Positions 1 through 63,024 of a stretch of 64,000 nt of DNA are shown piece after piece. The position numbers were made by a program, and so were the translations under genes. The notes beneath the pieces are model-generated. The model made no database searches. It was not told where the DNA came from and worked only from the letters and a program-made list of their open reading frames with translations. Source of the DNA: Serpula lacrymans var. lacrymans S7.9 (lineage: Eukaryota; Basidiomycota; Agaricomycetes; Boletales; Serpulaceae); contig NW_006763290.1 of NCBI RefSeq assembly GCF_000218685.1, positions 4,056,908-4,120,907 of the forward strand, given 5' to 3'. Within the stretch, counting starts at the first letter, position 1; the number at the start of each line of letters is the position of its first letter.

Positions 1-1675
1 GCATAATAACACCGCTGGGAGACATATTCACTGCATATATTTCCATCAGCATTTTGAATAGACCGTATTGTCCTATGCCACCCTTGTTCTCCAAAGGGAA
101 ATAGGAGGATATAATGCAGAGGTGAATAAAGGGGTCGCAAATGGCTGATATGCTTGAGACCACCACCATGATCAAATTTCAGCCGCAAAACAATATCACG
201 GTGCTCATCAACATCTTGTTCTCCATCTCCAGGGATAACAGCAGCAACTTCATCTGCAGTAGAAAGATTATAACAATGTTGGTCCAGAGTTTGGTCAAGA
301 GCTATATGGGCTGTTATTTTGGCACGTTCTGCTTCAGGCTTTTCCATGATAATCTGATAAGCTTGCTTGTACAAAGGGATGAATGGATTGAATTGCTTCA
401 GGGTATTCTGGATCTCCAGCATGGTTGCTGGTGTAGTGCCATGCCCCTGGGTATTCTCATTACGTAGAGAAAGAGCAGTCTGTGGGTGGTGAATGTAAAG
501 CTGGCCAAAAGAGGGAGTTTCACCTTCAGGTGGATGGAATGCGCTGATGCTATGATGAAGGCCTCCATGGATACGGAAACTATAAGGTCCTGCAGCACTT
601 GTGACAGCAAGGTCTATATTGACACCCAAAGATGTAAATGCAAAGGCATTGTTGTATGAGCGGACTTTGTCACGGAATTCACGTGCAGTAATGTCAACCC
701 CACGGAACAGATGGCGTAGAGCAGCAGGTGCTTCCTGGAAATGATCCAGCCTAACTTGACCTTGAAGGCAGTATACACCAAATTTTAGATGGATCCTGGA
801 GGAACTTGTGAGTCTCTCGGTATCCCAGTGTAATACTCCACAATTATGGCACTCTACGTCCATGTTGCGTAAAGTATGACGGTATAGAGGCTCTACATAT
901 GGTTGTTGAGCCTCCTGGCATATTACCTATGCTTGGCGGCGGTTGGCAATATTTTGTTCAGTTGCAAGTCATTGAGGCCTTGGCATCCTTGGTGTATTTC
1001 TGGCAGCTACCGGTTCATTTAAGTCCCTGCCTTGGTCTACAGCATCCCTGGCAGCCCTGTGGGCCTGATCTGCTAGCTTGTCTTCCCTCCTTTCAAGCTC
1101 TTCTTGAGCAGCTCTTTGGATTCTAATGAGTTGCTAAGCTTGTAGCTCTTCATAACACAGATCAGCATGCTGAGAATGCTGCTGTACCTGTAGTCTAATT
1201 GCCTCCTGACGTTCAATTTCTCTTTCCTGGTGATCCTCAGCCAACTGCTGTTCCTGCCTTTGGAGCTGTATTGCTTCCTGGTGTTGAATCATTTGATCCT
1301 CAGCCTGCTCCTGCCTTCATAGTCTATTACGCCATTGATTAACCTGTTCTGCATGTCAGTTTTGGAACCCATCTAATAGCCTTTTATTGTAGTCAACACC
1401 ATGGGTAGCAAGCAACTGGTTACCCTGCCGCATTTGAAAAGGGGGCTGCAATTGAGGGTATGCAGGTCCAGCTAATAGCTGGACATGCAATAATCATGCA
1501 CAGGTCCTCCAAAATTTGGACGCGCAATATTGATATTTCTCAAATCTCTACAATCCAAGAGGTGCTCTCGTCGCACACTTGGTGATGTCATCTGTTGATA
1601 ATGTTGTATACAATCTCTATTGCAATGTTCACCACGTTCTTGTTCGGGAGTCTGTGGAATATATCTATAAATCAC
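1..1675 (-). pseudogene. Helitron Rep/helicase protein, N-terminal part (partial, decayed)
   Basis: Read on the minus strand, the region gives a Gln/Glu-rich, probably coiled-coil segment (about 1440-900). It is followed by a Cys-pair motif (NMDVECHNCGVLHW, near 865-830) and then a long open stretch to the window edge containing GVYCLQGQVRLDHFQEAP and YHILLFPFGEQGW. This order is typical of the N-terminal part of fungal Helitron replication proteins; the HUH and Pif1 helicase parts would lie outside the window to the left. The Q-rich part has about five in-frame stops (TGA or TAG), each at a place where CGA or CAG would restore Arg or Gln, consistent with C-to-T decay. An acceptor-like TTTATAG lies just upstream of 1675, so an earlier exon may exist. 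The family call rests on recognition of the motif series, not on a search. Confidence 0.65.
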
Positions 1676-2718: not shown

Positions 2719-2993
2719 TGCACGCAGCATTTGGGACCACTGTCCCCTTTGTTATAGATACAAAAAGGTCACATGACCAACATGTCCAGAGGGTGATATC
2801 TATTTGAACCACCTTCCTTTCCCCTCAGCTTGCTATAACACATCTGAGGGTATGTTTCATTTATTTCATGTTATGATATACATATCAATAGTCTTTTTTA
2901 TCTAGTTTTCATATTGTCTAGGTACTCACAAATATTAGCTTGTTATAACACAACTGAATCTGAAATTTTCATATTGTCTAGTTTTCACAGACA
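2719..2993 (+). repeat. Solo LTR, copia-like, TSD TGACT, with leader intron and spliced copy
   Basis: A 275-bp solo LTR, TG..CA, flanked by TGACT at 2714-2718 and 2994-2998. It holds the hairpin CCTCAG..CTGAGG (2823-2849), a 56-nt intron GTATGT..CTAG (2850-2905), tract T1 TTTTCATATTGTCTAG (2906-2921), a spacer starting GTACTC, and a second hairpin core followed directly by an identical T2 (2966-2981). Confidence 0.85.
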
Positions 2994-13515: not shown

Positions 13516-13802
13516 TAATAAAACTAAGTGAAACTACAATGGATGTTAGTTTAAGGTGATCTCTAATAAATGTAATGTAACATACCTCAGCCGCTGCCCA
13601 AGAGGCTATAGAAATGCCTGAGGTATTTCTATACTAAACCCCCTACTACTTATAGTCGGAGGTGCTACTTGCTACAGTATAATGACTCCTAGGAGTACAA
13701 TTATGCTCCTAGGAGAACAATGGTTACTCCATGGAGTGGTGGCTATGTTCCATGGAGAACAATGGCTGCTCCGGCAGAGACCAGGTTTATCCGGTTTTGT
13801 CA
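13516..13802 (-). repeat. 3' LTR of copia element 1
   Basis: 287 bp. Contains four short palindromes (CTCCTAGGAG at 13686 and 13706, CTCCATGGAG at 13727, a similar one at 13748), a TATAAGTA box (sense strand), the hairpin CCTCAG..CTGAGG and a GTATGT..TTGTAG intron-like segment. The second hairpin copy found at 50322 is absent. Confidence 0.95.
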
Positions 13803-14674
13803 CTCCCACTCAAGTGCAACCGTAGTCCCATAGCTTTAGAGAATTTCCAGTGTTTTTCATGAGTGAGGGGTTTAGTGAGAATGTCTGCAACCATATCTCC
13901 TGTAGGAACATATCTGATTACTGCCTCTCCCTTTGATACTAAGTTATCTTGGATAAAATGATATTTTCGTTGAATGTGTTTTGTGTGAGCACGGAACTGT
14001 GGATCTCGTGTAAGAATGATAGCTGCTTGATTGTCACAGTGCAATGTTGTAGGTCCATTTTGAGCATGTCCAATTTCTTCAAAAAATGTCCGAAGCCATA
14101 CAAGGTGTTGTCCAGCATTGCTCAATCCAATATACTCTGACTCCGTGGAGGATAAAGCTACCATGCTGTGTCTTTTGCTTGTCCAGGAGATTGCTCCTCG
14201 GATGGTGATAAAGACAAACCCTGATGTTGATCGAGACGTGTCTGGGTCTCCAGACCAATCTGCATCCGAATATCCATGGAAATCCATGTCCATGGAGACA
14301 ACTGTGCCATTATATCGTAGTTCCATGTCCCTGGTTGCTTTCAGATATCGGAGGACACATTTTGCAGCTTCCCAGTGATGGCTCCTTGGAGCTGAGCTAT
14401 GCCTGCTTAGTATTCCAACAATGTAGGCAATGTCTGGGCAGGTTCCGAGCATGGCATACATGAGGGAGCCTACAATTGAGAGGTATGACACTTGACGCCC
14501 TTCAATATGCATCTCGTGTTGCACAATATCTTCCCCTGGAGCATTTGCAAGGAGTTTTGATCCATGGGCCATTGGTGTCCATACTGGTTTGCAGTTCTTC
14601 ATTCTAGTACGCTCCAGGACTGTGTCAATGTATTGGCGTTGCAATAGGGATATTGTCTTGTTTTGAATGATCAC
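13787..14674 (-). pseudogene. Copia RNase H and RT C-terminal part
   Basis: The minus strand reads SYLSIVGSLMYAMLGTCPDI, then the RNase H blocks GYSDADWSGDPDTSRSTSGF, VALSSTESEYIGLSNAGQ, LHCDNQAAIILTRDP and DILTKPLTHEKHWKF. The stop falls inside the LTR start. The frame is open over 295 codons, and RNase H acidic residues D, E and D are present. Confidence 0.92.
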
Positions 14675-15459
14675 ATTGGATTTCTATTCCGAGGATGTAT
14701 TTTGCTTCTCCAAGGTCCCACATTTTGAATATGGATTCGAGTTTGGCTTTTGTGATATCCATGAATTTTTGGGATGAAGCTCCTAGGAGGAGGTCATCTA
14801 CATAGACAACAATAAAGCATATTTGTTTGTTGTCCCGGAATACATAGAGACATGTTTCTGCATTTAGTCTTGTGAAACCAAGCTCCTGGAGCTTGCGATC
14901 AAAAGTTTTGTTCCATGTACAACCAGCTTGTTTTAACCCCTAGATGGATTTCTTCAATCTCCAGCAGTATCCAGGTTGGATAGGAACACCCCCTGGAGGA
15001 AGCATGTACAGTTCTTCTTCAAGTTCTCCATTGAGATAAGCTGTGGATACATCCATTTGATCAAGTTCTAGGTCGTACTTTGCTGCCAGGGCTAGAATAA
15101 TTCGGATTGACTCTAAGTTTGCAACCGGAGCAAAAACCTCCTGGTAATCAATCCCCTCCCTTTGAGTAAAACCTTGTGCAACAATCCGGAGTTTGTATCT
15201 CTCAATGTTTCCGTTTTGATGTGACGGGTTTTACTCCCTTTGGAAGTGGAACAGTGTCATATACTGCATTAGTATTGAGACTTAGGAGTTCCTCCTCCAA
15301 GGCAGACTTCCATAATTCTCCATCCGGACGTGATAAGGCTTCCTTTAGTGTCCTTGGAAGGTCTGTGTTAGATGGACCGGTACTTGCTATTCCAGCAAAG
15401 AATGTCTCCTCTGTATCAGATGTTTCTTCATGAACCTCAGGAGTGTTAGGTTTCTCCAT
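14675..15459 (-). pseudogene. Copia reverse transcriptase, frameshifted
   Basis: The N-terminal RT block reads EALSRPDGELWKSALEEEL and DTVPLPKGVKPVTSKRKH. After a frameshift near 15200 it continues with KLRIVAQGFTQREGIDYQEV, ANLESIRIILALAA, LDQMDVSTAYLNGELEEEL and FIVVYVDDLLLGASS. The YVDD catalytic box is intact. A stop lies near 14941. Confidence 0.88.
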
Positions 15460-15724
15460 GGAGTTGTCATGCTGCTCTTTTTGAGACTGTTCCTCATCTA
15501 GAGTCCTTTGATAATCTCGGTTTTTGTCTGCAGGACGGGTCTGGCGACTGCTTCTGCGTACTCCTAGGACTTCAGCAGCATGACTGCTCTTTTAGGGACT
15601 TGTGCAGGTACTCCAGGGAGTAGCAGCATTTGTGTATTTGTTGCCCCACTCACTCCTGAAGGTGTTGAATCACTCCTTGGAGGTGTTGTATGCCTTCCAG
15701 AAGCTAATCCAATGGACAGGCTGT

Positions 15725-17176
15725 CTAGCTGTATTCGGACCTTTTCCACATCAGCTGGCTGTATGTTGTGGGGCTGAAGTTTTCTTCTCCCAAATGAGTC
15801 CGGAAGAATGTTTGGACATCTTCTTTCCATTGCTTGTATTGTTCCAGTGCTTCACTTTTATGTTTTAGGAAATATATCCATGGAAATTTGGAGAAATCAT
15901 CTACAATGATAATCCAGTACCAAAAGCCCTCCCTGGAAGTTGGTTTGATTGGTCCTTCAACATCTGTGTGCACAATTTGTATGGGGTGCTTGGCTCGGTT
16001 TCCTCCAGTGGACTTGAAAGGTAATTTCTTCATCTTTCCTAAAGCACAAGGTTCACAAAACTCCGGGGTTCCAGTAAGGGTGTCTATATCCTGGAGCTGT
16101 CTTTTTGTAACCATTTGTTGCAAGCGGTCCATTCCAATGTGTCCCATTCTCCTGTGCAATAAATTTACATCTACTGCTGCAAAAGCTGAATCCAGGTTGA
16201 TTTCGGGTTTTGCTTGGATGTGATAAAGTCCTCGCTTGTGTAACGCAGTGAGGATAAGTTCCTCCTTTTTCCGAACTTCACAAGTATTTGACCCTGCTGG
16301 AAAAAGTGTTGATAACCCCGTTTTGGACAATTTGTGGACAGAGATGAGTGCTAACATGAAGTTTGGCACAAGTAAGACATTTGACAGTGCAATATTGTAG
16401 TCCTTATTGCCAACAGTTGCTTGTAGTATTACAGTTCCAATTCCAATGGCATTTACAGAGGATTCATCCCCAAAAATGATCGTCCTCGGAGGATGCAGAA
16501 CATGGTATGTTCCTGGCTCAAACCAGGAGCGGTGAGGGACCATGTGGGATGTTGCTCTGGAGTCAATAATAATTGTTGTTTTGGTCTTATCGGGTTCCGA
16601 CACAAGGTAAGCTTGAATGCGTTTAGCAAGGGGCTTGGAAATATGTACATGATCCAATGCAATATGACTCTGTTCCTCCTCGGAGTCAGATCTGGATGAT
16701 TGCTCCGCTGTATTTTCCTTTCCCTTCTTCCTTTGACTTTTTTCAGCTGACTGAAGTGTTCGACACTCCGAGGTGTTGTGTGATTTGGCTTTGTGGAAGT
16801 TACACCATTTGTCCTCGGATTTGAGTGCTGATTTGGAACCTCCAGGGGCCTTCCCTGACTGTCGTGCAACTTCTGCAGTGATCCGGATCTCAACTGCATC
16901 AAAGGTAAATTTATTTTCTTTAATCGTGTTGATTACTGATGACTGAAATATTTGCCATTCAGGAGTGCATGAGAGAGATTGGAGAAGAGTGAAAGCCATG
17001 AGTTTGTTATCAACTCCTAGTTTCATTCCAGAGAGGTGTGAATCAATTGTCCGGATTTTTGCAATGTGGTCCTGAATAGGTGATGTCCCATCCCAGGACA
17101 ATTTGGTGAGTTGCTGGAATGAATGGAAGGCCAAGGCAATGTTGGACATTTGATGGAGCGAGACAAGTTTATTCAA
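15725..17176 (-). pseudogene. Copia Gag-protease-integrase, integrase core truncated
   Basis: A 483-codon open frame. Gag part NKLVSLHQMSNIALAFHSF; a CCHC-like region CNFHKAKSHNTSEC; protease IIIDSRATSHMVPH (the usual D-S-G reads D-S-R); integrase H-C zinc region LHRRMGHIGMDRL and CEPCALGKMKKLPF; then HTDVEGPIKPTSREGFWYW. After FLKHKSEALEQYKQWKEDVQ the sequence jumps to unrelated residues, and the second Asp and the Glu of the D-D-E core are missing, so an internal deletion joins integrase to the region before RT. Confidence 0.88.
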
Positions 17177-17456
17177 ATAACTCCTTGGAGCTGGTGAGGT
17201 CTCCAGTCCTCATTAGGAGGGCATCAGAGATGTGGTCCTGGATGACTCCATGTGCCTTCTCATCCTTAAGTATCCAGGTGATTTCAGGATCCTCCGAGGA
17301 GGTAGGTTTTCCTGGTGAGGGCTTAAGCTCCTCTCCAGTAACAACCCAGAGAACTTTTTCCTGACGTAGCTTTGAGATGATCCGGAGTTTCCATATCTGA
17401 AAATTGTTGGGTCCAGTGAGAACTGGACATGCGGATGTATCGCGTGCTGTGGTCAT
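17169..17456 (-). pseudogene. Copia Gag N-terminus
   Basis: Starts MTTARDTSACPVLTGPNNFQ and includes IWKLRIISKLRQEKVLW, typical of copia Gag. A frameshift near 17175 separates it from the downstream open frame. The first ATG after the LTR lies in the primer-binding site but opens only an 11-codon frame, so ATG at 17456 is the likely start. Confidence 0.85.
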
Positions 17457-17513
17457 GGTTCCGAGGTTGCCATTTCAAATAAGAATTATTTCCTGCGTAG
17501 CTTTTGCGCACCA

Positions 17514-17525
17514 GGGCTCATAACC
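17514..17525 (-). promoter_or_regulatory. Primer-binding site (half-tRNAi-Met type)
   Basis: GGTTATGAGCCC directly abuts the 5' LTR on the minus strand. Its complement, GGGCTCATAACC, matches a eukaryotic initiator tRNA anticodon stem-loop, with the CAT anticodon in the middle. This is the internal-priming arrangement known for Drosophila copia. Confidence 0.85.
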
Positions 17526-17812
17526 TAATAAAACTAAGTGAAACTACAATAGATGTTAGTTTAAGGTGATCTCTAATAAATGTAATGTAACATACCTCAG
17601 CCGCTGCCCGAGAGACTATAGAAACAACTGAGGTATTTCTATACTAAACCCCCTATTACTTATAGTCGGAGGTGCTAATCGCTACAGTATAATGACTCCT
17701 AGGAGTACAATTGTGCTCCTAGGAGAACAATGGTTACTCCATGGAGTGGTGGCTATGCTCCATGGAGAACAATGGCTGCTTCGGCAGAGACCGGGTTTAT
17801 CCGGTTTTGTCA
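17526..17812 (-). repeat. 5' LTR of copia element 1
   Basis: 287 bp, sense TGACAAAACC..TTTTATTA. It carries the four CTCCNNGGAG-type palindromes, TATAAGTAAT, a hairpin CCTCAG..CTGAG followed by GTATGT, an ACTAAC branch-like site and TTGTAG. It has the single-copy form of the leader module. Confidence 0.95.
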
Positions 17813-21925: not shown

Positions 21926-24797
21926 TGGCATATGATATGGCATTACCATTGTACATTGATTCATAGTCAAATGACATACAAAAGTGACATGCTGTGACAC
22001 AGTCAGGCAACCCCTTAACAATGGTGCAATTTACAAGCTAGCACTCACTCTCCTTTGTCCAACCCCAGTACATATCAATGTGATTCAACTCACAGTGATA
22101 TTTAGGCAGAAAATAGCACCTATGGCCAGCATCCTTAATAAGCACCTGGAGCAGTGGCCTTTCACTCATAAAATCTTTCTGTAGCGAGAGGACTTTTTGC
22201 ATGCAACACCACCTGGATGCCCCTACTTGGATGCCATCACACTATCTAACATCCAGCTTTTCATCTGCCCCTTCTGCAGCAGCGGCTTCCCTCTCCCTCA
22301 TCATTTTTTCTTGAGCCTCTCGAGACATTTTGCAGATTGGACATTCACCAACAACTCAGCCATTATTGTGACTCCTTATTGTTTCAACAAGGCCTTGCTC
22401 TTCCAGGACTGGCAACATCCCTTTTGCTTGGCCACAGAATTCAAAGTCAGGGTGGTTGGATAGGAGGTCATGTGGAAACACCATGTCCTGGGACTTGCTG
22501 TGCAATGACACATTGAGGTTGTTGTCTGTTATGTAAGTTGATTTCATTTTCCTCTGCTTTCCCCCAGGTTTAATGTTCATCTCTTTTGCATTTAGAGCAT
22601 CCTTTGCAAATGCCACCATGTGCTAACAAATGATCAAACACAAACTCACCGACAGCATTTGATTATATTCTCTCAAATATTGGGATTATCTGTTGGACCT
22701 GGTACTCACTAAGCAATATTTTCTTATCCACAGAATCTCTACATGACCTGAGTTATTAATCGCTCTGTATTCCACCATCCCTCATGATTCTCCCCAGGAA
22801 AAATTATTTCTCTTGCATTTGTATCTTTCAGTTTATCTGTGCTTGGTAACTGACCATTCTCTTTTAGCTATTCATCAGTCAATGCTAGTTAACCTGTATG
22901 TTTGACAATGAAATCCAATACATGAATTGCACGGCCTTGTCCTTTTTCCATAGTGGCATCTTCCCCTCTGTGGTCCATACACAACACCGCAACTCATTTG
23001 CTCGGAAGATAGACTCATCATGCATAACCACCATATGCAGCTTCTCTCCAGGTTGCAGTTCTGGTTCAATGGGCTGCAATATTTTATCATCATAGGTATA
23101 TCATAGCCTGGCATCATCATTAGTTTACTGAAAACATCATTATTAACCAGCTTACCTCTCATTCTTTGATATCTCATCTAGGAACTTGGTGCGGTACTCG
23201 ATAACATCTTTTTTCTCATGGCCATCAAAATACAGGCCTTTCTTTGCCTCTTTTAACTCATATACTAGCTTAAATAGCCAGCGGCGGGCTGTTGCCTCCG
23301 AGACTTTGCTCTGCTTTGATTTGAGTACAAGTCCTGGGATTATTTTCTCATTGGTTCGTTTTGTCAGCAGTGACAGTGTTATCTAAACAGCCAGGTACCA
23401 GATAAGTTGTCAGTGAGTTGTCGCTCTAACCTTCATGAATACACACTGACCTCTCCATTAGCAAAAATCATTAGGTACCGGCATATTGCACAAACAACAT
23501 GCTCATCGTTGAGCAGGGATATGTGCCCTTGGTGTCTACCTGTCTTCACACTGCTGGCAATGTCCAAAACCACTCAACATAGGTATACATTTGTCGGATC
23601 TTTCAAGAAAAATATGGACCCTTCCGTATTGAAGTAGCAACAGACAGACTGGCCTTCGTCTTTGGTGATTTGATTCTAGGAACCATTTTATACTTCTCCC
23701 ACAGGTTGACATATTGTTTCAGCGCATGCAAGTTTACTAACTGCGAATGTGCCCGATACTTCTTTGCATTGTTTATCAACCTCTTTATTGTTGCTTTCAC
23801 TGTTTCTTGCCCAGGCCCTTTTTTATCTGTCCTTAGGTTCAAGAACACTGCTGCAAGTTCCTCATCTCCATTACTCAGCACTCTTTCTTCTCCCAACATC
23901 TCTGCTGGTGACTTGGTGTCTCCTTCCTCAATCTCTTCCCAGGTTTTATCATCAATGCTTGTCACCTCTCCCCAGGTTCCCATCTCAATACTCATCTCCT
24001 CTTCATCAAGTCCTTCGCCGATTCTTTCAACCCCTTCTTCCAATCTCAGTCCCTCTCTTTTGAAACTACTGCTTCTGTCATCAACGACAGACCGAGGCCG
24101 CTTGTCAAAGAATACAGTGATCTTTTGACAGCCTTTGGAGGCTTCTTGTAAAGCCTTCGAAGTGTCATACTTAGACACTGGCCCTACCTACCCCTGTGTA
24201 GGTGGGCATACAATTTTTGGGCCCCCCTGATGGTTTCGTACCATTATTTCCTTCTATACTTGTTACTTCATCGAGGCAATGTTTCTTTATGGGTAAGGCT
24301 TGTATCTGTTGTTGGCATATTATATACATTACAATAGATTCTTCATTCTTGCAGTCACTTTCATTCAACTATTCCGACATTCTGATAGATTACATAAGTT
24401 TCCTAATTAGGATACAGAAAAGCGCACTCATCCTACCTTAGACACCTCAGTCATTTACCAGAAAGACTGAGGTACAGTAAACACTATTATTGCAGTTAAA
24501 ACTCATACTTACACATTCCTTTAGAGTCTTTTACTTTACAGGTACATTTGATTAATATATCAGTCATTTACCAGAAAGACTGAGAGTCTTTTACTTTACA
24601 GTTCTAGTCATCACATCATCTGTGTCATCTCCATCACTTGGCTCATATTCAAATTCTGCATCTCTAGGTGTGTTGGTTATGTGTCCGGTAAGCTGGGTAA
24701 AGCCCTTTTGATTGGCTGTTCTCTGCTTCTTCACTAACAGTTGTGTTTTTCTTGGTGGAGGCATTCTGACGTGATGTTTTACAGCGGATTCAAGCAC
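21926..24797 (-). pseudogene. DDE transposase remnant (fungal DDE-superfamily endonuclease)
   Basis: The N-terminus is at 24797-24600 (MPPPRKTQLLVKKQ). It is interrupted by an LTR-like insert and continues at about 24160 (KYDTSKALQEASKGCQKI). A long N-terminal helical part has IKRLINNAKKYRAHSQLVNL. The DDE core reads MVVMHDESIFRANELRC (first D), VFDHLLAHGG (second D) and YHCELNHIDMYWGWTKE (third acidic position), with MNIKPGGKQRKM and AKGMLPVLEEQGL between. This order fits a widespread fungal DDE transposase family related to IS630/Tc1-type enzymes. Multiple stops and frameshifts make it inactive. Confidence 0.82.
24169..24606 (+). repeat. LTR-like insertion with leader intron and spliced copy (boundaries tentative)
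   Basis: Contains hairpin H1 CCTCAG..CTGAG (24445-24471), intron GTACAG..TTTAG (24472-24524, 53 nt), T1 AGTCTTTTACTTTACAG (24525-24541), a spacer starting GTACATTTG, H2 (24560-24584) and T2 identical to T1 (24585-24601). GTCAT occurs at 24164-24168 and 24607-24611 and could be the target duplication, but the ends implied (AC..TA) are not canonical. Confidence 0.6.
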
Positions 24798-34090: not shown

Positions 34091-34756
34091 ATTATAGCAT
34101 GTCTACAACAGGAGTGATCCAAGGAGTTTTACAGAGAGACGAACCTAGTCACAAAACAGCCCGGGAGTCGCTTATACGCAATGCACAAAGGATATGTACT
34201 GTTCTACACAAGCAGTCAGTCGCTCACCAGTCAGTATTTTCATGGGCATTTGGCTTGTTAGTGGGGTATTGTGCATGAAGGTTGAAGAACTGAGCCAAGA
34301 GCAACACGGCCTTCACTTCAAGGCAAACACTGCGACCACAGAACAGCTAGAAGATACTTTCTTGTCGGTATTAGGAACAAAAATGAAAGATATAGCATCG
34401 CACCTTTGGATTGTCGTACAAAGGCTTCTCAAAAGTCCCAATGATCGGCGCGTGAAACTGAGACAAAACAATGATGACATGCTGGCAGGCTTTGCACCAC
34501 TGGTGGAGAATGACCTTGGCGAACTGGGTGGTACCGAGGAGCTTGCAAGAGACAGCGAGCATGATGAAGAGAGCCCTATGAAAAAAAGCCAGAAGCGAGC
34601 AGGGGCAAGAAATGCTGCGCTGCTGATGATTGTGAGTGAATTGTCACTAGGCTGTTGACAACTAGTAACCATAGCTAGAAAACGGTCATTTGCATTAGTA
34701 TCTTCCTTCAAAGCTCGAACGAAAGATGTAATTACCTTCAAGCAATACTAGGAATA
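34091..34756 (+). pseudogene. DUF6589-domain protein, 5' part (split by copia element 2)
   Basis: Reads SVAHQSVFSWAFGLLVGYCA near the start, with a stop soon after, then EDTFLSVLGTKMKDIASHLW, RRVKLRQNNDDMLAGF, a charged segment and KRAGARNAALLMI, then a probable intron (GTGAGT..CTAG) and CNYLQAILGIF. The protein is cut at the ATTTT target site by copia element 2 and resumes at 39848. Proteins of this type are common and multicopy in mushroom genomes; the function is unknown. Confidence 0.75.
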
Positions 34757-34760
34757 TTTT

Positions 34761-35100
34761 TGTTAGAAAATGCGAGTCGACAAAGACAAGCGCCGTACGA
34801 AGGGAAAGTATGGTGCAGGACACCATACTAGGAAAGTGTAGTGGTAGGATGGCCCGTGTGTTTTGATGGGGCAATTTACCCCCTTAGTTATACTTCCGTT
34901 CGAGTTTAAAAACCTTCATAGCAACGATCGCCCACCTCAGAGCTTCGCCCACAAAGTCTGAGGTGAGGATCTTATACCTTCCTTGTTTTTGTGATATACT
35001 TACTCTGTACCTAGCATTTGGTTTATATTAGGTACGCAAATACATTCTTAGAGCTTCGCCCACGAAGTCTGAGCATTTGGTTTATATTAGATCTCTTTGA
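34761..35100 (+). repeat. 5' LTR of copia element 2, with leader intron and spliced copy
   Basis: 340 bp, TGTTAGAAAATG..CTCTTTGA. H1 CCTCAG..GTCTGAG (34935-34962), intron GTGAGG..CCTAG (34963-35014, 52 nt), T1 CATTTGGTTTATATTAG (35015-35031), a spacer starting GTACGC, H2 (35049-35073) and T2 identical to T1 (35074-35090). TTTAAAAA about 30 bp before CCTCAG may be the TATA box. Confidence 0.95.
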
Positions 35101-35112
35101 GGTTATGAGCCC
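35101..35112 (+). promoter_or_regulatory. Primer-binding site overlapping the Gag start codon
   Basis: GGTTATGAGCCC abuts the 5' LTR and is complementary to the anticodon stem-loop of initiator tRNA-Met. The ATG in it (35105-35107) is the first codon of the Gag-Pol frame (MSPASETTYPEKD), so primer anticodon and start codon coincide. Confidence 0.85.
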
Positions 35113-38100
35113 TGCGAGTGAGACAACGTACCCTGAAAAAGACACCCTTGGGGTGCCAAAGCTCGAGCCGGATGGCTCGAACTGGTCGATGTACAAAACT
35201 CGCCTCGAATGGGCCCTTGCTGACCGAGACTGCGTCGAGCACCTCCATGGCACAGCAAAAAGGCCGATACCACTATCCCAGACCACTAGCCAGACTGCTA
35301 GCCAGGCCACAGCGACGACATCTCCTCCTGCAACAGTCAGCAAGGCTGATCAAGAAGCACTTGATGCCTGGGTAAAAAAGGAGTACCGCGCGCGAAATAT
35401 ATTAGGTCGCACCATACCTGATTCGACGCTGCGAAGGATCCTAAACAAGCCCACCGTCGCCGACATGTGGGTCATGATCTGTCAAGAAAACGAGAACAAA
35501 ACGGAGCTAGTTCAGTCCGAGCTAAGAGAAAGGTTGTCGAACCTACGCTGCACCGAGAAAGGAGACTTGCGCGCACATTTGGACAAGATTCGCGCGCTAT
35601 GGGAACAGCTCAGCGCAGCAGGAGTCCAACTAGCAGACAAAGAACTCACCTCCAGCATCATCATGTCTTTGCCGCACTCATACGCCACCTACCTATCGCA
35701 CCTGTCAGCGTCTGCCCATATGTCAAAGCAGACCTTGGACCCAGAGACACTGATCTCGTACCTTCTCCAAGAATACGACCGACAGACCATATTCAGAAAA
35801 CGCCCGACAGCGAAATCAGAGGACATTGCTATGTCAGCCACCGGAGGACAAGGATCGTCCAAACGTGGAAGTCGAGGCGGAAGAGGTCGCTGCAAGAAAG
35901 GAAAATCATCTGGCGGCAGAGACAACAAGGATACCAGCGAGCTTGAATGCTGGAACTGCGGTGGAAAGGGACACAGGTCACACCAGTGCCCAAGTGAGAA
36001 GCGTGAGCGCTCCACAAAGAATGAGTCAAAAGGGGACTCACCAGGAGACAAGAAAGAAGAGGGGCAAACGGGCGATGCAAAGGGAAAGAAGCCTGAAAAG
36101 GCGAACCTTGCTGTCCATGTCCAATGCGACGGCGCGAGCCTATCAGATTTTGAAGAAGGCGCGTGGAGCGCCCTCACTCACCAACTCGCCATGAACGCGA
36201 GGCCCAAGAGTCCCATTGAAATCTATGACTCTGGCGCTACGAGCCACTTCACCCCCCATCAACACCTCCTACTCAATTACCGCACAATTGCACCTTACCC
36301 TATAAGCGTGGCAAACCAAGACTCCTTCTCTGCTGTAGGAACAGGGGATATGATGATTAGTGTCCCCAATGGCGCCCATAAAGACACGCAAGTGCGCCTG
36401 AGAGACGTGTTATACGCACCAAATTTGGCCTACACCCTAGTTTCCATAGGCTGTATGGATAAGGCAGGCTACAAGGCCGTCTTTGCGAAAATCGAATGCG
36501 TTATCTATGACCCGAGAGGAAAAATAAGAGGACACATACCTAAAGTAGGTGGTGTGTACCAGTCGCGAGGCACAAATCTTCGCCACGAAAGCGCCAATGC
36601 AGCTGTTGAGCGCATATCTGCCACTGAACTCCACAAGCGCCTTGGCCATATAGCCATTGATGCAGCAAAGCGCATGGTGTCGAAGGGCTTGATCCATGGG
36701 GTAGAACTCCTGGAGGATAGGGTAACAGACACTTTCTGTGAAACTTGTGTCCGCGCCAAGGGCAAGCGCGAGGCAATCCCTAAAGTGAAACTGGGTGAGC
36801 ATGCACAGGAATATGGCCAGGAGATCCACACCGACCTATGGGGACCTGCACCAGTCGAAACACTGGGTGGAAAACGGTACTATGTTGCCTTTACGGACGA
36901 TAAAACACGCGAAACACATGTTTATCTACTGCGCGATAAATCTGACACTTTCTGTCAATTCCAAATGTATGAGGCCTGGGTCCGCAACCACATGAATGCA
37001 GCAATCAAAGTCTTACATAGCGACAGGGGTGGCGAATATGTGAGCAATGCGTTTAGTGACTATCTGAGAGATAGAGGAATTATGAGGAAACTCACAGTGC
37101 ACAACACCCCCAAACAGAACGGTGTCGCGGAGCGCGTGAACCATACCCTACTTGAGAAAGTACGCGCCCTCTTACTTAGCAGTGGCCTGCCGAAATTCCT
37201 GTGGGGGGAAGCCATCAAACATGCATGTTGCTTGAAGAACCGCACCTCCATCAAGGCACTAGACAACATGACGCCGTTTGAAGCGGTACATGGTGTCAAG
37301 CCGGATCTTGCTGGCCTACACGATTGGGGCTGCAACGTACTCATGCACAACGCAACTGGCTCAAAGCTTGAGAGCCGAGCTAGGAGGGGTCACTGGGTTG
37401 GTTTTGATACCAAAAGTCTCGGACACCGCATCTATTGGCCAGAGAATCATTCAGTCACTGTTGAGCGCTCAGTGCATTTCAACGTCGGGAATGTACCTGT
37501 AGATGCTGACAACGAACCTCCCTTTGGGCTTGAGGGGGAGTATGATGTCCTGGACCAAGCGCCAAAGGAGAGTGACATTGTAGAAATTAGTGATCACATA
37601 CCTCATCCCGATTCACCCAATCCCCAAGCAATCCCTGACCCACTCTACCCTCAGGATCAAGATCAAGCTGATCCTGATCCCATCCTACCAGCTCCAGTTC
37701 TTCCACCTCCACCTATAGTTGCTCCGCGTTGAAGTACCCGCATTTGCCAGCCAACCCAATATGTTCGCAACCTCCTACAAGGAAAAGGATCAGTATCTGG
37801 AAATAACGGACCCACCCTCCCCAAAGGCATCCAACTGAATGTCGACGATCCGTATGGGAGAGATGAGGAAGAGAGAGATAATGAAGCACTAAGGGATCTC
37901 GCCCAAAATGTAGCCATGGTGGCACGCATGGCAGATCTTGAAGGCGTCGAACCCAGAACTATTGAAGAAGCCCGAAAGCGCCCAGACTGACCAAAATGGG
38001 AAGAAGCGATTAATGAGGAATTGAACAGGCTTTGAGTAGCAGGAACATGGACTTACATTGAGAGACCCAAAGATGCAAACATCGTAGGGAGTAAATGGGT

Positions 38101-39511
38101 GTTCAAGCTAAAGAAAACAGCATCAGGATCTATTGATAAGTACAAGGCAAGGCTTGTAGCACAAGGCTACAGTCAAGTGGAAGGAATAGACTATTTTGAC
38201 ACATTTGCCCCCGTTGCAAAGATGGCATCACTACGAATCATCTTAGCGATGGCTGCTCGAAATGATTGGGAAACTCACCAGATGGATGTAAAAAGTGCAT
38301 ACCTAAACGGCGAACTAGAAGAAAACGAGGTCATCTACATGCGACAACCGCCTGGTTACAACGCACCTGGAAAAGAGACCCAAGTCCTACGCCTAAACAA
38401 GACACTCTATTGCCTGAAGCAGGCCAGCCGCAGGTGGTATCAGACCCTATGCGATGGACTCCAGAAAATCGGTTTAATTTGCTGTGAAACAGACCATGCA
38501 GTTTTTCATAGGCGCAACGAAGGAGAGCTCACCATTATTGCAGTTCATGTAGACGACATGACTCTCGTCACACCGTCAATGACTGAGATAAACCGTTTGA
38601 AATTTGACCTAGGAAAACTCTTCGAAGTTAGTGACCTGGGGGAGCTACATTGGATGTTAGGAATAGAAGTGAAAAGAGACAGAAGCACACGCACCTTATA
38701 CATGTCACAATGCAGCTACCTCGACACTATTGTCAAATGCTTCAACCTAGAAGATGCAAAAATGTTAGCGATCCCAATTGTTGCTAGCACGTACCTGAGT
38801 AAAGATCAGAGCCCCAAGACGCCTGAAGACTACGCAGAAATGCGAAACGTCCCATATCGAGAGGCTGTGGGATCACTGATGTATGCGGTGATTGGCACAC
38901 ACCCCAATATCGCGCATGTTGTTGCAATTCTTTCTCGTTTTGTCGAGAACCCAGGTCCGGCCCATTGGGAGGCAGCAAAAAGGGTGATCCAGTACCTAAA
39001 AGGGAGCAGAGAGCTATGGTTAGCATACGGTCCGGAAGAACAGCCACTTACAGGATACACCGACACAGATGGGAGTATGAACGAGAACAGGCGAGCCATA
39101 TCAGGCTATGCCATGATGCTTGATGGTGGCGCCGTCTCGTGGTACTTGAAGCAACAAGAAATTGTCGCGTTATCAACGACAGAGGCCGAGTATGTGGCTG
39201 CAACACATGCCACCAAGGAACTACTGTGGGCGAGGATGTTCATCAGCAAACTCTTCAATCAAGCCTTACCACCAACCATCCTCCTGTGTGATAATCAATC
39301 AGCCATAGCACTTTCAAAGGACGGTCAATACCACGCGCGAACCAAACATATTGATGTTTGGTACCATTTCATTCGGCATACCATCGAAGAAGGGAAGATC
39401 GAGATTACTTATTGCCCAACTGAAGAGATGGCAGCCGACGTGCTCACCAAGTCCTTGCCCTCTGCAAAGGTGAAACATTTTGCGGCTGCATTAGGCCTAC
39501 GTACCGCTTGA
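35105..39511 (+). pseudogene. Copia Gag-Pol polyprotein with three TGA codons
   Basis: Gag starts MSPASETTYPEKD at the primer-site ATG. The zinc knuckle is CWNCGGKGHRSHQC. Protease IYDSGATSHFTPH is intact. Integrase has LHKRLGHIAIDAA, a CxxC pair (CETCVRAKG), HTDLWGPAPVE, VLHSDRGGEYVSNAF and HNTPKQNGVAERVNHTL, with D, D and E all present. RT has GSKWVFKLKK, QMDVKSAYLNGELEENEV and AVHVDDMTLVTPS. RNase H has YTDTDGSMNENRRAISGY, LSTTEAEYVAATHA and LLCDNQSAIALS. TGA codons at 37730, 37988 and 38033 break the frame before RT; the first fits CGA-to-TGA (Arg) and the second fits TGG-to-TGA (Trp). Otherwise this is a nearly intact copy. Confidence 0.93.
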
Positions 39512-39518
39512 GGGGGAG

Positions 39519-39842
39519 TGTTAGAAAATGCGAGCCATACGAAGGGAAAGTATGGTGCAGGACACCATACTAGGAAAGTGTAGTGGTAGGATGGCCCATG
39601 CGTTTTGATGGGGCAATTTACCCCCTTAGTTATACTTCTGTTCGAGTTTAAAAACCTTCGTAGCAACGATCGCCCACCTCAGAGCTTCGCCCACAAAGTC
39701 TGAGGTGAGGATCTTATACCTTCCTTGTTTTTGTGATATACTTACTCTGTACCTACAATTTGGTTTATATTAGGTACGCAAATACATTCTTAGAGCTTCA
39801 CCCACAAAGTCTGAGCATTTGGTTTATATTAGATCTCTTTGA
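39519..39842 (+). repeat. 3' LTR of copia element 2
   Basis: 324 bp, with the same hairpin-intron-tract module as the 5' LTR. Here the intron acceptor CCTAG-C reads CCTAC-A, so the 3' splice site is lost in this copy. Confidence 0.95.
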
Positions 39843-39847
39843 ATTTT

Positions 39848-59041: not shown

Positions 59042-62000
59042 ATGGTTGGCCTACAATCAGTACTTCAGGCTTTGAACGTTCAAGTTAAGCTCACATCTGC
59101 CCAGTCTGCAGGAGAGGATCCTACAATCTGTCCTGCTTGTCACAAGAAGCTTAAAACTCCCCAGGGTCTGATATGCTATTTGTCATTAGCAAGAAGCTGC
59201 AAATGGTATAACAAAGGGAAGCTACAAAGTTCGATGATTCCAGGAGAACTTGATAGGGGCAATGATTTAGAGATAAGGGAAATACCTGACATGTTACCTA
59301 ATGAGCTTAGACCTATGGATGAAGACCCAGAAGATGTGGTGGATGACTACTATGATCGTCTCTATGATCTTATTCCCACAGAATCTGAGGAGAATATGGC
59401 TGGACCCTCAAAGCTTCCTGATAAAGATGATGAGGAGCGTATTGAGGTACCCCACCCTACTGCAGGCAAGGTGATTAGGATGGATAAAACAGTATATGAA
59501 AGATGGAGGAGAGAATTTGGAGCTGAGGATATGGTAATATGGATATGGATTCAGATACATCAGATGGATCAGGGAACATTTTTGCACCCTTTGCATCAGA
59601 GCTAGACTGGAGAGTTGCTTGCTGGACTGTACAGGATGGAATAGGCTATAAATCATTGGATAGATTAATGGCAATACCAAGGGTACATCACCTCGATCTC
59701 TTTTTCAAGCACATATACTGATTTATCTATTTCAACAAAGGTGGCGGGTAAGTTAGGTCTATCCTACCATAATACATATGGGCTCCATAAGCTGGTCAAT
59801 CGTGTTCCAGAACATGCTACTTGTAAAACTAGAGAATTGTGGTTCAGGAATAGTCCCGAGCATAAGCATATGGTTTATCATCGTGATCCTATTAAAGCTG
59901 TCAAGTCCTTGCTAGGAAATCCAGCTCATGCCAAGGACATTGTCTACAGGCCCAAGTGCATCAAAATCTCACAGGATTTACAATGAGATGTGGACCAGAG
60001 ATTGGTGGAATACAGTACAGGCAGGTGGCATGAATCTAAATGTGTTATTTCAGATATTTGATGATAATATTCCCATCTAGAATCACTTACCTGAAGGTGC
60101 CTATGTAGCCCCTGTTATCATAACCACAGATAAGACACAACTCACCCAGTTCTCTGGCAACAAGTCTGCTTATCCAGTGTATCTAACTCTGGGAAATTTG
60201 CCCAGATCTATGTGCGGTAAACCTTCCAAACACGCCTGTATTCTCATTGCCTATCTCTCTGTCAGCAAAAATGTAGGAGACAATCTATCCAAAAAGCAAA
60301 AGTCAGCATGTAATCAACAACTCTTTCATGACTCAATGTGCATAGTCTTGGAGCCTCTGATAGAGCCTCTGAAGCATGGAATAGAAGTCACAGGGGGAGA
60401 TGGAAGGGTTAGGAGGATCCATCCCATCCTAGCCTGCTACTAGCAGATTATCCAGAATAATGTCTTGTCACCTGTGCAAAATATGGGACCTGTCCTAAAT
60501 GCGATGCCTCTGAAGATATTGTTGGAGAAAGACGTCCAGGGAGATGGAGGACCCAGAAGAAGACTGCTGAGGTTATATCAACAGCCAAAGCTGATGCAAC
60601 CTCCATCAGCAATTTTCAGGAGAGATGCAAAGCTCAAAATGTGTCTGGGGGTGTCTGTCATCCTGTCTGGGAGGGGTTTCCTCATTGCAACGTCCACATG
60701 GCCATAACCCCTGATATAATCCATCAACTCTACCAAGGTGTTGTAAAACATCTGATTCACTGGTGCTCTAGCTTGATGACCAACAAAGAGCTGGATGATC
60801 ACATTTGTAGACTCCCACCTTGCTTTGGTGTACGGCATTTCAAGCATGGTTGGTCACAGCTATCCCAGATATCTGGGATGGAGAGAAAAACATGGCAAGA
60901 ATTTTACTGGGGTGCATTATAGGGAAGGTCCCCTCTCAGGTTGTAACTTGTTATAGGGCACTCCTCAACTTTATCTACATTGCACAATATGCAAGCCATG
61001 ACAATACCACCATTCAATACCTGGAAGATTCCTTGGATCTCTACCATGCCAACATGCACATTCTTGTCCATCTTGGGGTACAAGAATATCTCAACATTCC
61101 CAAGTTGCACTCCATGCTGCACCATGCTGAATGTATTAGAAATTTTGGCACCAACAACAATTACAACGCAGAAATATTTGAAATGTTCCACATAGATTTT
61201 GCCAAGGAATGCTGGAGGGCATCAAATTTCCGTGACAGAGTTCCTCAGATGACTCAGTGGCTTAGTAGGCAGGAGAAAGTAGCTATGTTTGAAAGCTACC
61301 TGAACAACTACAAGAGAGAAGAAGAGAAGCAGGCAGAGCTAGAAGGAGGTATAGAGGCTAGTTCATCGCCTTCATCCAAACCCCTATCTACTTTCCTGGC
61401 TAAACATCCACATTCCCCTGGCCAGACACTGAAAAGTGTTCAAACAAGTCATCAATGTCCATCTTTCTCATGTCACCTACGTACTTTCCTTAACAAATTC
61501 ATGGACAGAGGGAATACAATCCCTAGAAATCAAGTAGCCTTAGCCCAGCTTCCATTTGATCGTCTAAATATTTGGCACTCATTCAAATTTGTGTTGGATA
61601 GTCTGGGTAATGATATAGATAGCATCCAAAATATGGATGGTATAAAGGCCAAGCCTGGAAAAAGAGGAGAGGAGGGCAGATTTGATGCTGTTATTGTAGC
61701 ACATATTGATAAAGCAGAGGCAAGAGGCCTGCAAGGTACATCAAACTGTATTGTCCCTCTACTGCTTTTTTGCTTACTATGTCACTATAGGGATAAAGGT
61801 TGGGAGATTGAGGGTCATATTCTCACTCCAAGATATCCTTTATTCTTACAACATTGCACCTTATTCATGGCCCAAAGGCCTTTTGGTTTACGTGGAGTGG
61901 TACAAAATATCTAGAAATCCTGGGCAATTTCATAACATGTACATTGTTACCAAGCCAGTCCCTCAGGCAAATGGTGTTGCACCTGGTGCTATTGTTTTAC

Positions 62001-62696: not shown

Positions 62697-63024
62697 TGTT
62701 GGAGCATTAGACGACACTCATGAAAGTTGAGTCTCCACCTAGAAACACTTACATTACTTACAAAGTTGTAATGGCGGGAAACTCCTTCCTTTTCCATCTT
62801 CAGATATTCCCGCAACATCTATTTTCTCCTTGTTCAAGCACTTGACACCTCAGTCTGTTATTACAGTACTGAGGTGAGACATCACAACAATATGTTTTCA
62901 AGTTAGACATCTATTGACCTTCTACCTTAGTTTTTACTTATTAAACAGGTACTACATTTAATACAGTCTGTTATTACAGTACTGAGTGTTTACTTATTAA
63001 ACAGGTTTATACATAACCACTTCA
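62697..63024 (+). repeat. Solo LTR, copia-like, TSD GCATC, with leader intron and spliced copy
   Basis: 328 bp, TGTTGGAGCATTAGACG..CCACTTCA, flanked by GCATC at 62692-62696 and 63025-63029. H1 CCTCAG..CTGAG (62848-62873), intron GTGAGA..CTTAG (62874-62930, 57 nt), T1 TTTTTACTTATTAAACAG (62931-62948), a spacer starting GTACTACATTTAATA, H2 (62964-62986) and T2 TGTTTACTTATTAAACAG (62987-63004). Confidence 0.93.

Follow-up and report, generated by a model that had tools for sequence, protein, structure and literature searches.

Copia-type LTRs of Serpula lacrymans carry the leader start twice, with a putative intron in the first copy

Introduction

Ty1/copia elements prime reverse transcription with a half-tRNA from the anticodon arm of the initiator tRNA. 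A single round of reverse transcription should remove an intron from the R region of an LTR, since the spliced 5′ end is the template for the new R. In retroviruses R, the suppression of polyadenylation and the effect of U1 and the splice donor have been described, as given in excerpts of PMC12789967. In the foamy virus LTR the poly(A) signal lies downstream of the major splice donor; according to the portion of that report used here (Schrom et al. 2013, PMC3694450), the first stem-loop is extended in the 3′ LTR RNA by bases immediately preceding the start, and U1 binding suppresses the 5′ poly(A) site in a way that does not depend on splicing. The plant elements EVADE and Ogre have introns that yield subgenomic RNAs through alternative splicing (PMC12786077), and a lariat model of minus-strand transfer has been put forward for Ty1, with a 2′-5′ bond between the RNA 5′ end and the 3′ R (PMC1266399), both as stated in excerpts of these sources. 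No description of an LTR layout with a spliced leader was found among the open-licence PMC papers listed by literature searches, and the excerpts of PMC5371799, PMC4256276 (on the bacterial ltrB gene) and PMC5014426 hold nothing on such a layout.

The LTRs described here show a possible route by which an intron in R could persist. They were analyzed in a window of 64,000 nucleotides of Serpula lacrymans var. lacrymans S7.9 (the whole stretch of DNA under study) and genome-wide, that is, in one 42.6-Mb assembly of 29 contigs.

The copia element at 34761-39842

The element occupies 34761-39842 of the plus strand, between ATTTT target-site duplications at 34756-34760 and 39843-39847. Its 5′ LTR, of 340 nt (34761-35100), reads TGTTAG...CTCTTTGA and forms with the 3′ LTR (39519-39842) a direct repeat of 97% identity across 300 nt. 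The primer-binding site GGTTATGAGCCC (35101-35112) adjoins the 5′ LTR and matches the anticodon arm of initiator tRNA-Met, which we take to be the primer. The primer-site word RGGTTATGARCCC is found at 318 places genome-wide (183 and 135 on the two strands) against 0 and 2 in the control. A gag-integrase ORF (35105-37729, plus strand) has matches to the domains Retrotran_gag_2, rve and zf-CCHC, and is separate from the reverse transcriptase ORF (38036-39508, plus strand; RVT_2, E 4.3e-71). Integrase is thus upstream of reverse transcriptase, rve spanning residues 602-694 of the first ORF and RVT_2 lying in the next. The ATG at 35105 is located inside the primer site and in frame with gag; hence, the putative gag start would pair with the CAU anticodon of the primer tRNA.

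By domain order and target-site duplication, this is a Ty1/copia LTR retrotransposon. Instead of the single R between U3 and U5 expected of that group, the leader start occurs twice in each LTR; two R per LTR define a variant, and do not by themselves exclude the Ty1/copia lineage. Identity to the protein relatives is 52-63% among the 120 listed of 4826 matches, and the organisms named among those listed are mushrooms, e.g. Galerina, Psilocybe, Gymnopilus and Mycena. A search of viral contigs with the reverse transcriptase found no relative, and in 22 viral stretches containing the primer-site word the 70 bases upstream look unrelated. Elsewhere in the window, a 367-aa ORF (60811-61911) has a DUF6830 match slightly under threshold.

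A module with two copies of the leader start

The whole LTR is ordered U3-H1-intron-T1-spacer-H2-T2-U5, the module from H1 to T2 being located at 34939-35090, with all its features on the plus strand. H1 (34939-34962), the first copy of the leader start, is a hairpin ending in CTGAG, and is followed by a 52-nt GT..AG intron (intron 1, 34963-35014; GTGAGG...CTTAC...CCTAG) whose donor, branch-like motif and acceptor recur across families. T1 (35015-35031) ends in AG and continues with GT into the spacer (35032-35049; GTACGC..AAATACATTCTT), a putative poly(A)-signal region whose end, up to 35049, is the putative strand-transfer junction, hypervariable in the families F2 and Q. H2 (35050-35073), with one mismatch to H1, is joined directly, at the position of the splice junction, to T2 (35074-35090), which is identical to T1. 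Identity of H1 and H2 begins at the AG of CTC/AG, CACCTC standing upstream of H1 and being absent before H2, and the A at 34939 is, from its sequence context, a plausible transcription start site. The 3′ LTR has the same module layout, with H1 from 39681 and CCTAC as acceptor. The first-pass annotation had reported this arrangement, and that H2-T2 equals the spliced form of H1-intron-T1; both can be read directly from the letters, the one mismatch in H2 aside.

That annotation had also named four further LTRs of the window, and these share the layout. From the sequence and the family table, their modules are located at 2827-2981 (plus; family F5, degenerate), 24449-24601 (plus; F3), 50480-50330 (minus; F2, with a 40-nt hairpin) and 62852-63004 (plus; F4), those of F3 and F2 being found also by a split-repeat scan. 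The scan of the window (exact 9-mers, both strands, GT/AG not required) gave four clusters, three of them modules whose gap ends are GT..AG and one a short chance match without GT..AG; the reversed and the complemented window gave two clusters each at the same places mirrored, and so do not constitute an independent control.

A genome-wide search for the hairpin CCTCAG-N10-30-CTGAGGT gives about 670 places, and one for the reversed pattern 6-7. The LTR of the present element (copia-2) gives 45 matches, in which a single LTR is in some cases counted as two pieces. In F2, the commonest family, the layout is present at 258 places and the reversed pattern at 0; family Q is present at 250. Of 93 distinct hairpins in the collected loci, 46 have an H2 downstream above threshold (one orientation), a few possibly by chance, and in 47 it falls below. 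Three forms of LTR can be told apart: L, the layout with both R copies; I, U3-H-T-U5; and S, U3-H-intron-T-U5. They were counted in 96 primer-anchored LTR ends, consisting of stretches upstream of 80 of the 318 primer places, in whose selection the hairpin played no part, and of other collected loci. Seven of the 12 copia-2 ends have two H and the intron, three one H without intron, and two are of other kinds. The 38 F2 ends comprise 10 L, 20 I, 7 S or partial and one with three H; the 18 Q ends, 13 L and 5 S. Among the 28 others, judged by eye, at least 8 have the L form and about half are without such a layout. The layout is established as real and general in this one genome, by 21 representatives of 20 families, with H and T that differ between families and match inside each LTR, as the annotation had held.

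In eight of the 96 primer-anchored loci a predicted tRNA gene lies close to the copia primer site. It is tRNA-Thr (TGT) at 262-336 (plus) in L127, L132, L134 and L137; at 48-122 (minus) it is tRNA-Thr (TGT) in L155 and L176 and tRNA-Ile (TAT) in L130; and in L112 it is tRNA-Thr (TGT) at 226-300 (plus), in orientation opposite to the primer site. The gene of L134 is placed within the apparent LTR (TGTTAGAATATA.. to the primer site); it would be unusual for the LTR of a copia family to contain a tRNA gene.

Two putative introns

In the family table (21 representatives of 20 families, one genome) the donor of intron 1 is GT in 21/21, with an offset of one base in F5, and the acceptor is AG in 17/21 by script and in 20/21 by eye, F5, F9 and F20 having an AG within three bases and F10 having none. 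Coincidence of the H2-T2 junction with the splice junction, which had been a point to be checked, thus extends to a larger set of LTRs. Nineteen family introns measure 50-58 nt, with G at +5 in 17/19 and YAG ends in 19/19. A branch-like motif is found 12-23 nt from the intron 3′ end in 16 of these 19, where 2000 shuffles averaged 4.5 and never exceeded 11; the 13-17 nt bin by itself holds 16. This test was run after a broader one, with motif and positions picked once the introns had been seen; for F5, F9 and F20 it used intron ends placed by eye, and F7b and F10 were left out. The broader branch-motif test gave 12/21 against 51% in shuffles, that is, no enrichment. With its GT..AG ends, branch site and fungal length, intron 1 has the properties of a spliceosomal intron, and its splicing is well supported by sequence. 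The spacers, as first suggested from this one LTR, contain an AATA-type motif (AATA/ATAAA) in 18/21 families' representatives, against a shuffled mean of 5.1 and maximum of 12.

Rich in pyrimidines and with AG as their usual end, the T sequences resemble a 3′ splice site, and after T1 comes GTA. Since T2 ends in AG, this suggests a second GT..AG intron that would begin after T1 and close with T2, made up of spacer, H2 and T2 (putative intron 2, 35032-35090, plus strand). GT directly follows T1 in 20/21 representatives; T2 ends in AG in 18/21, and GT comes next in 1 of those 18. The second donor (GTA..) is weak, without G at +5 in most families. Family Q has the part corresponding to the second intron alone: R1 is followed by GTACTG..AATAAT.. 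and R2 by U5, with no intron within R1. Its S form (5/18) is an exact removal of the segment that follows R1, through R2, although a deletion between the 22-nt repeats of Q would also yield it.

A cycle that would renew the second copy

Next to the observed layout, its recurrence, the concerted sequences and the hypervariable junction, we infer from the sequence a start site, splicing, a poly(A) site and a replication cycle. In the proposed cycle, transcription would start at the A of CTC/AG in R1 (H1-intron-T1). The 5′ leader would lose both intron 1, between H1 and T1, and the spacer with R2, from the GTA after T1 to the AG before U5, and the packaged RNA would begin H-T-U5-PBS. The 3′ end of the RNA would retain U3-H1-intron-T1-spacer, its terminus falling within R2 or close to the spacer that bears AATA. 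Strong-stop cDNA of H-T-U5 would be joined at the spacer/R2 border, and the new LTR would be U3-H1-intron-T1-spacer-H-T-U5, with R2 a fresh spliced copy of R1 in every cycle. The introns would persist because the R1 part is copied from an unspliced 3′ end; a spliced 5′ leader, an unspliced 3′ end and a transfer at the spacer would thus rebuild the whole LTR and keep both copies alike. Renewal of R2 requires that the RNA lose spacer, H2 and T2, and so the second GT..AG intron is needed. The first-pass annotation, from which the second intron was absent, had proposed that cDNA of a spliced leader was joined to the 3′ RNA end in an event that left R twice. The joining itself finds support in the sequence, whereas the past event is better replaced by a join renewed each cycle, given the concerted change in subfamilies and the hypervariable base between spacer and H2.

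Likeness of the two copies and the transfer junction

In 21/21 representatives the best match of R1 is the R2 of the same LTR rather than an R1 or R2 of another family, with a mean of 0.92 against 0.29-0.30, in a comparison the first-pass annotation had called for; the representatives were selected for having an H2, so that the 0.92 is biased upward and describes LTRs that have kept the match. Similarity of H and T between families averages 0.30, with a maximum of 0.74. When three pairs of subfamilies are compared, R2 repeats 8 of the 11 differences seen in R1 (hand count on alignments); the 8 include two transversions each in H and T and a length change of 3 nt. A single ancestral tandem duplication, with insertion of an intron into the first copy and plain divergence thereafter, would account for the similar spacer and layout of all 20 families, but is contradicted by H and T that differ between families and match within the LTR and by the shared substitutions and length change, and has hardly any probability in our judgement.

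At an A/T site of F2, T1 and T2 agree in 90 of 100 listed copies (258 in total), where about 66 would be expected from the table margins if they were independent (Fisher p 7e-11). The 10/100 discordant copies need a transfer between different RNAs. The same 10, together with the discordant LTR pairs discussed below, would fit a scheme with both introns spliced and R2 not renewed each cycle, the LTRs coming usually from unspliced or partly spliced RNA and an occasional capture of a spliced leader keeping the similarity. An unspliced usual template would, however, place the junction before H1, and there the base is nearly fixed (C in 32/33 in F2, T in 18/18 in Q; hence 1/33 and 0/18 variable), which makes this scheme improbable.

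The base before R2, on the contrary, is hypervariable. In F2 it is A in 71, C in 12, T in 9 and G in 1 of 93 standard-length rows (100 listed of 258), 22/93 being other than A; in Q it is T in 28, A in 26 and C in 11 of 65 readable rows (100 listed of 250), 37/65 differing from the commonest base. The search patterns fix flanking bases, so the comparison is limited to free columns: in F2 (columns 17-47) there are 21 transversions at the base before R2 and at most one at any other, and in Q at most 4/65 rows differ by eye at the others, except the neighbouring base (10/65). Untemplated addition at the RNA end occurs in Ty1, and addition of this kind at a capped RNA end before the transfer would yield a hypervariable base.

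A transfer junction at the spacer/H2 border would also be found in an ordinary LTR starting at H2, in which H1-intron-T1 belongs to U3 and is kept like H2-T2 by gene conversion or recombination, splicing being uninvolved. The copies H1/H2 and T1/T2 do seem to recombine, apparently in each LTR separately, F2 having the I form at 151 places and the S form at 55. Such an LTR leaves unexplained why the gap has, in one family after another, the ends and length of an intron and a branch-like motif, and it is the base before H1, rather than that before H2, that is conserved as a start site would be; we consider a start at H2 unlikely, though the least unlikely of the alternatives. Among F2 LTRs, a spliced first R is found at one place (G000:C15:47347-47372) and an unspliced second R at one place (G000:C4:2919685-2919735), against 258 L forms, with patterns that differ somewhat in strictness; the former would arise if the 3′ end were spliced, the latter if the 5′ leader stayed unspliced. 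Concerted change of R1 and R2, the hypervariable base and the near absence of the alternative LTRs together favour renewal of R2 from R1. Renewal from the spliced R1 in each cycle is thus the best single explanation and probably the correct one.

The two LTRs of one element

The intron-less I form and the S form were both considered as proof of splicing and both rejected, since a deletion between H1 and H2 gives the same sequence as the former, and one between T1 and T2 the same as the latter. There is no clear link between the form of one LTR and that of its partner in the same element: the two agree in 14 of 27 pairs, where shuffling gives an expectation of 11.0 (p 0.16). The pairs were drawn from 191 places on C1-C3, the L forms among them coming from 100 listed of 258. 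Both LTRs have the I form in L081, while in L062, with the duplication CTTGG, the 5′ LTR has the L form and the 3′ LTR the S form. An F2 element at 13517-17527 (minus strand) has two S-form LTRs 4.0 kb apart, the commonest distance being 4.8-5.1 kb.

The junction base differs in two of five Q pairs, 5745-5748 bp apart, and in two of six F2 pairs (4/11 in total); the count excludes two further Q combinations, with spacings of 6074 and 6398 bp and differing bases in both, since neither is likely to be a single element. The T1/T2 alleles agree in 6/6 F2 LTR pairs, one of them with a shared mosaic. A single transfer copied into both LTRs would not yield differing junction bases. The differing LTRs of an element can be read in two ways, as separate alteration after a common transfer or as separate transfers for each LTR.

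The start hairpin and comparison with known systems

An AATA-type motif follows the putative donor-like sites (34963 and 35032 in the present LTR) in the spacers of 18 of the 21 representatives. Over 26 representatives, predicted donor pairing is 0.90 in the 5′ RNA, 0.97 in the 3′ RNA and 0.87 with a shuffled U3; the difference of 3′ from 5′ RNA (Wilcoxon p 0.007) has the expected direction and a small effect, and the donor is not predicted open in the 5′ RNA. Next to the invariant ACCTC/GAGGT core, the adjoining positions pair differently from family to family and, by eye, are often mismatched, for which reason no covariation is claimed there; most listed hairpins were found by a pattern demanding this core. 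Structural hiding of the 3′ donor has a precedent in the part of the foamy virus report used here (PMC3694450), and the predicted effect in our fold test is weak.

The layout suggests that RNA splicing is built into the copying of these elements. We would give an even chance to the fuller proposal, in which splicing is obligatory in LTR regeneration, the introns of R survive indefinitely through the unspliced 3′ end, cDNA of the spliced leader is written into the LTR each cycle, and the start hairpin may switch the 5′ donor on and hide the 3′ donor. If true, splicing, choice of poly(A) site and strand transfer would be linked in one 150-nt module in many families of one genome, and the matching R1 and R2 would be a built-in record of the RNA ends behind each copy.

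The arrangement resembles that of foamy virus in that the CACCTC before the start can pair with the donor GAGGTG, and differs by the second copy of R and the intron contained in the LTR, neither of which is mentioned in the part of that report considered (PMC3694450). With EVADE and Ogre it shares introns in an LTR retrotransposon, although theirs, in the excerpt used, are not placed in the LTR (PMC12786077). The Ty1 lariat model, as excerpted, likewise links the branch chemistry of splicing to strand transfer, and is set apart by its 2′-5′ bond (PMC1266399). The element is like Ty1/copia in its gag, its integrase before reverse transcriptase, its 5-bp target duplications and its primer site for the anticodon arm of the initiator tRNA, and unlike it in having two R per LTR, the first with an intron, and a second putative intron across spacer and R2.
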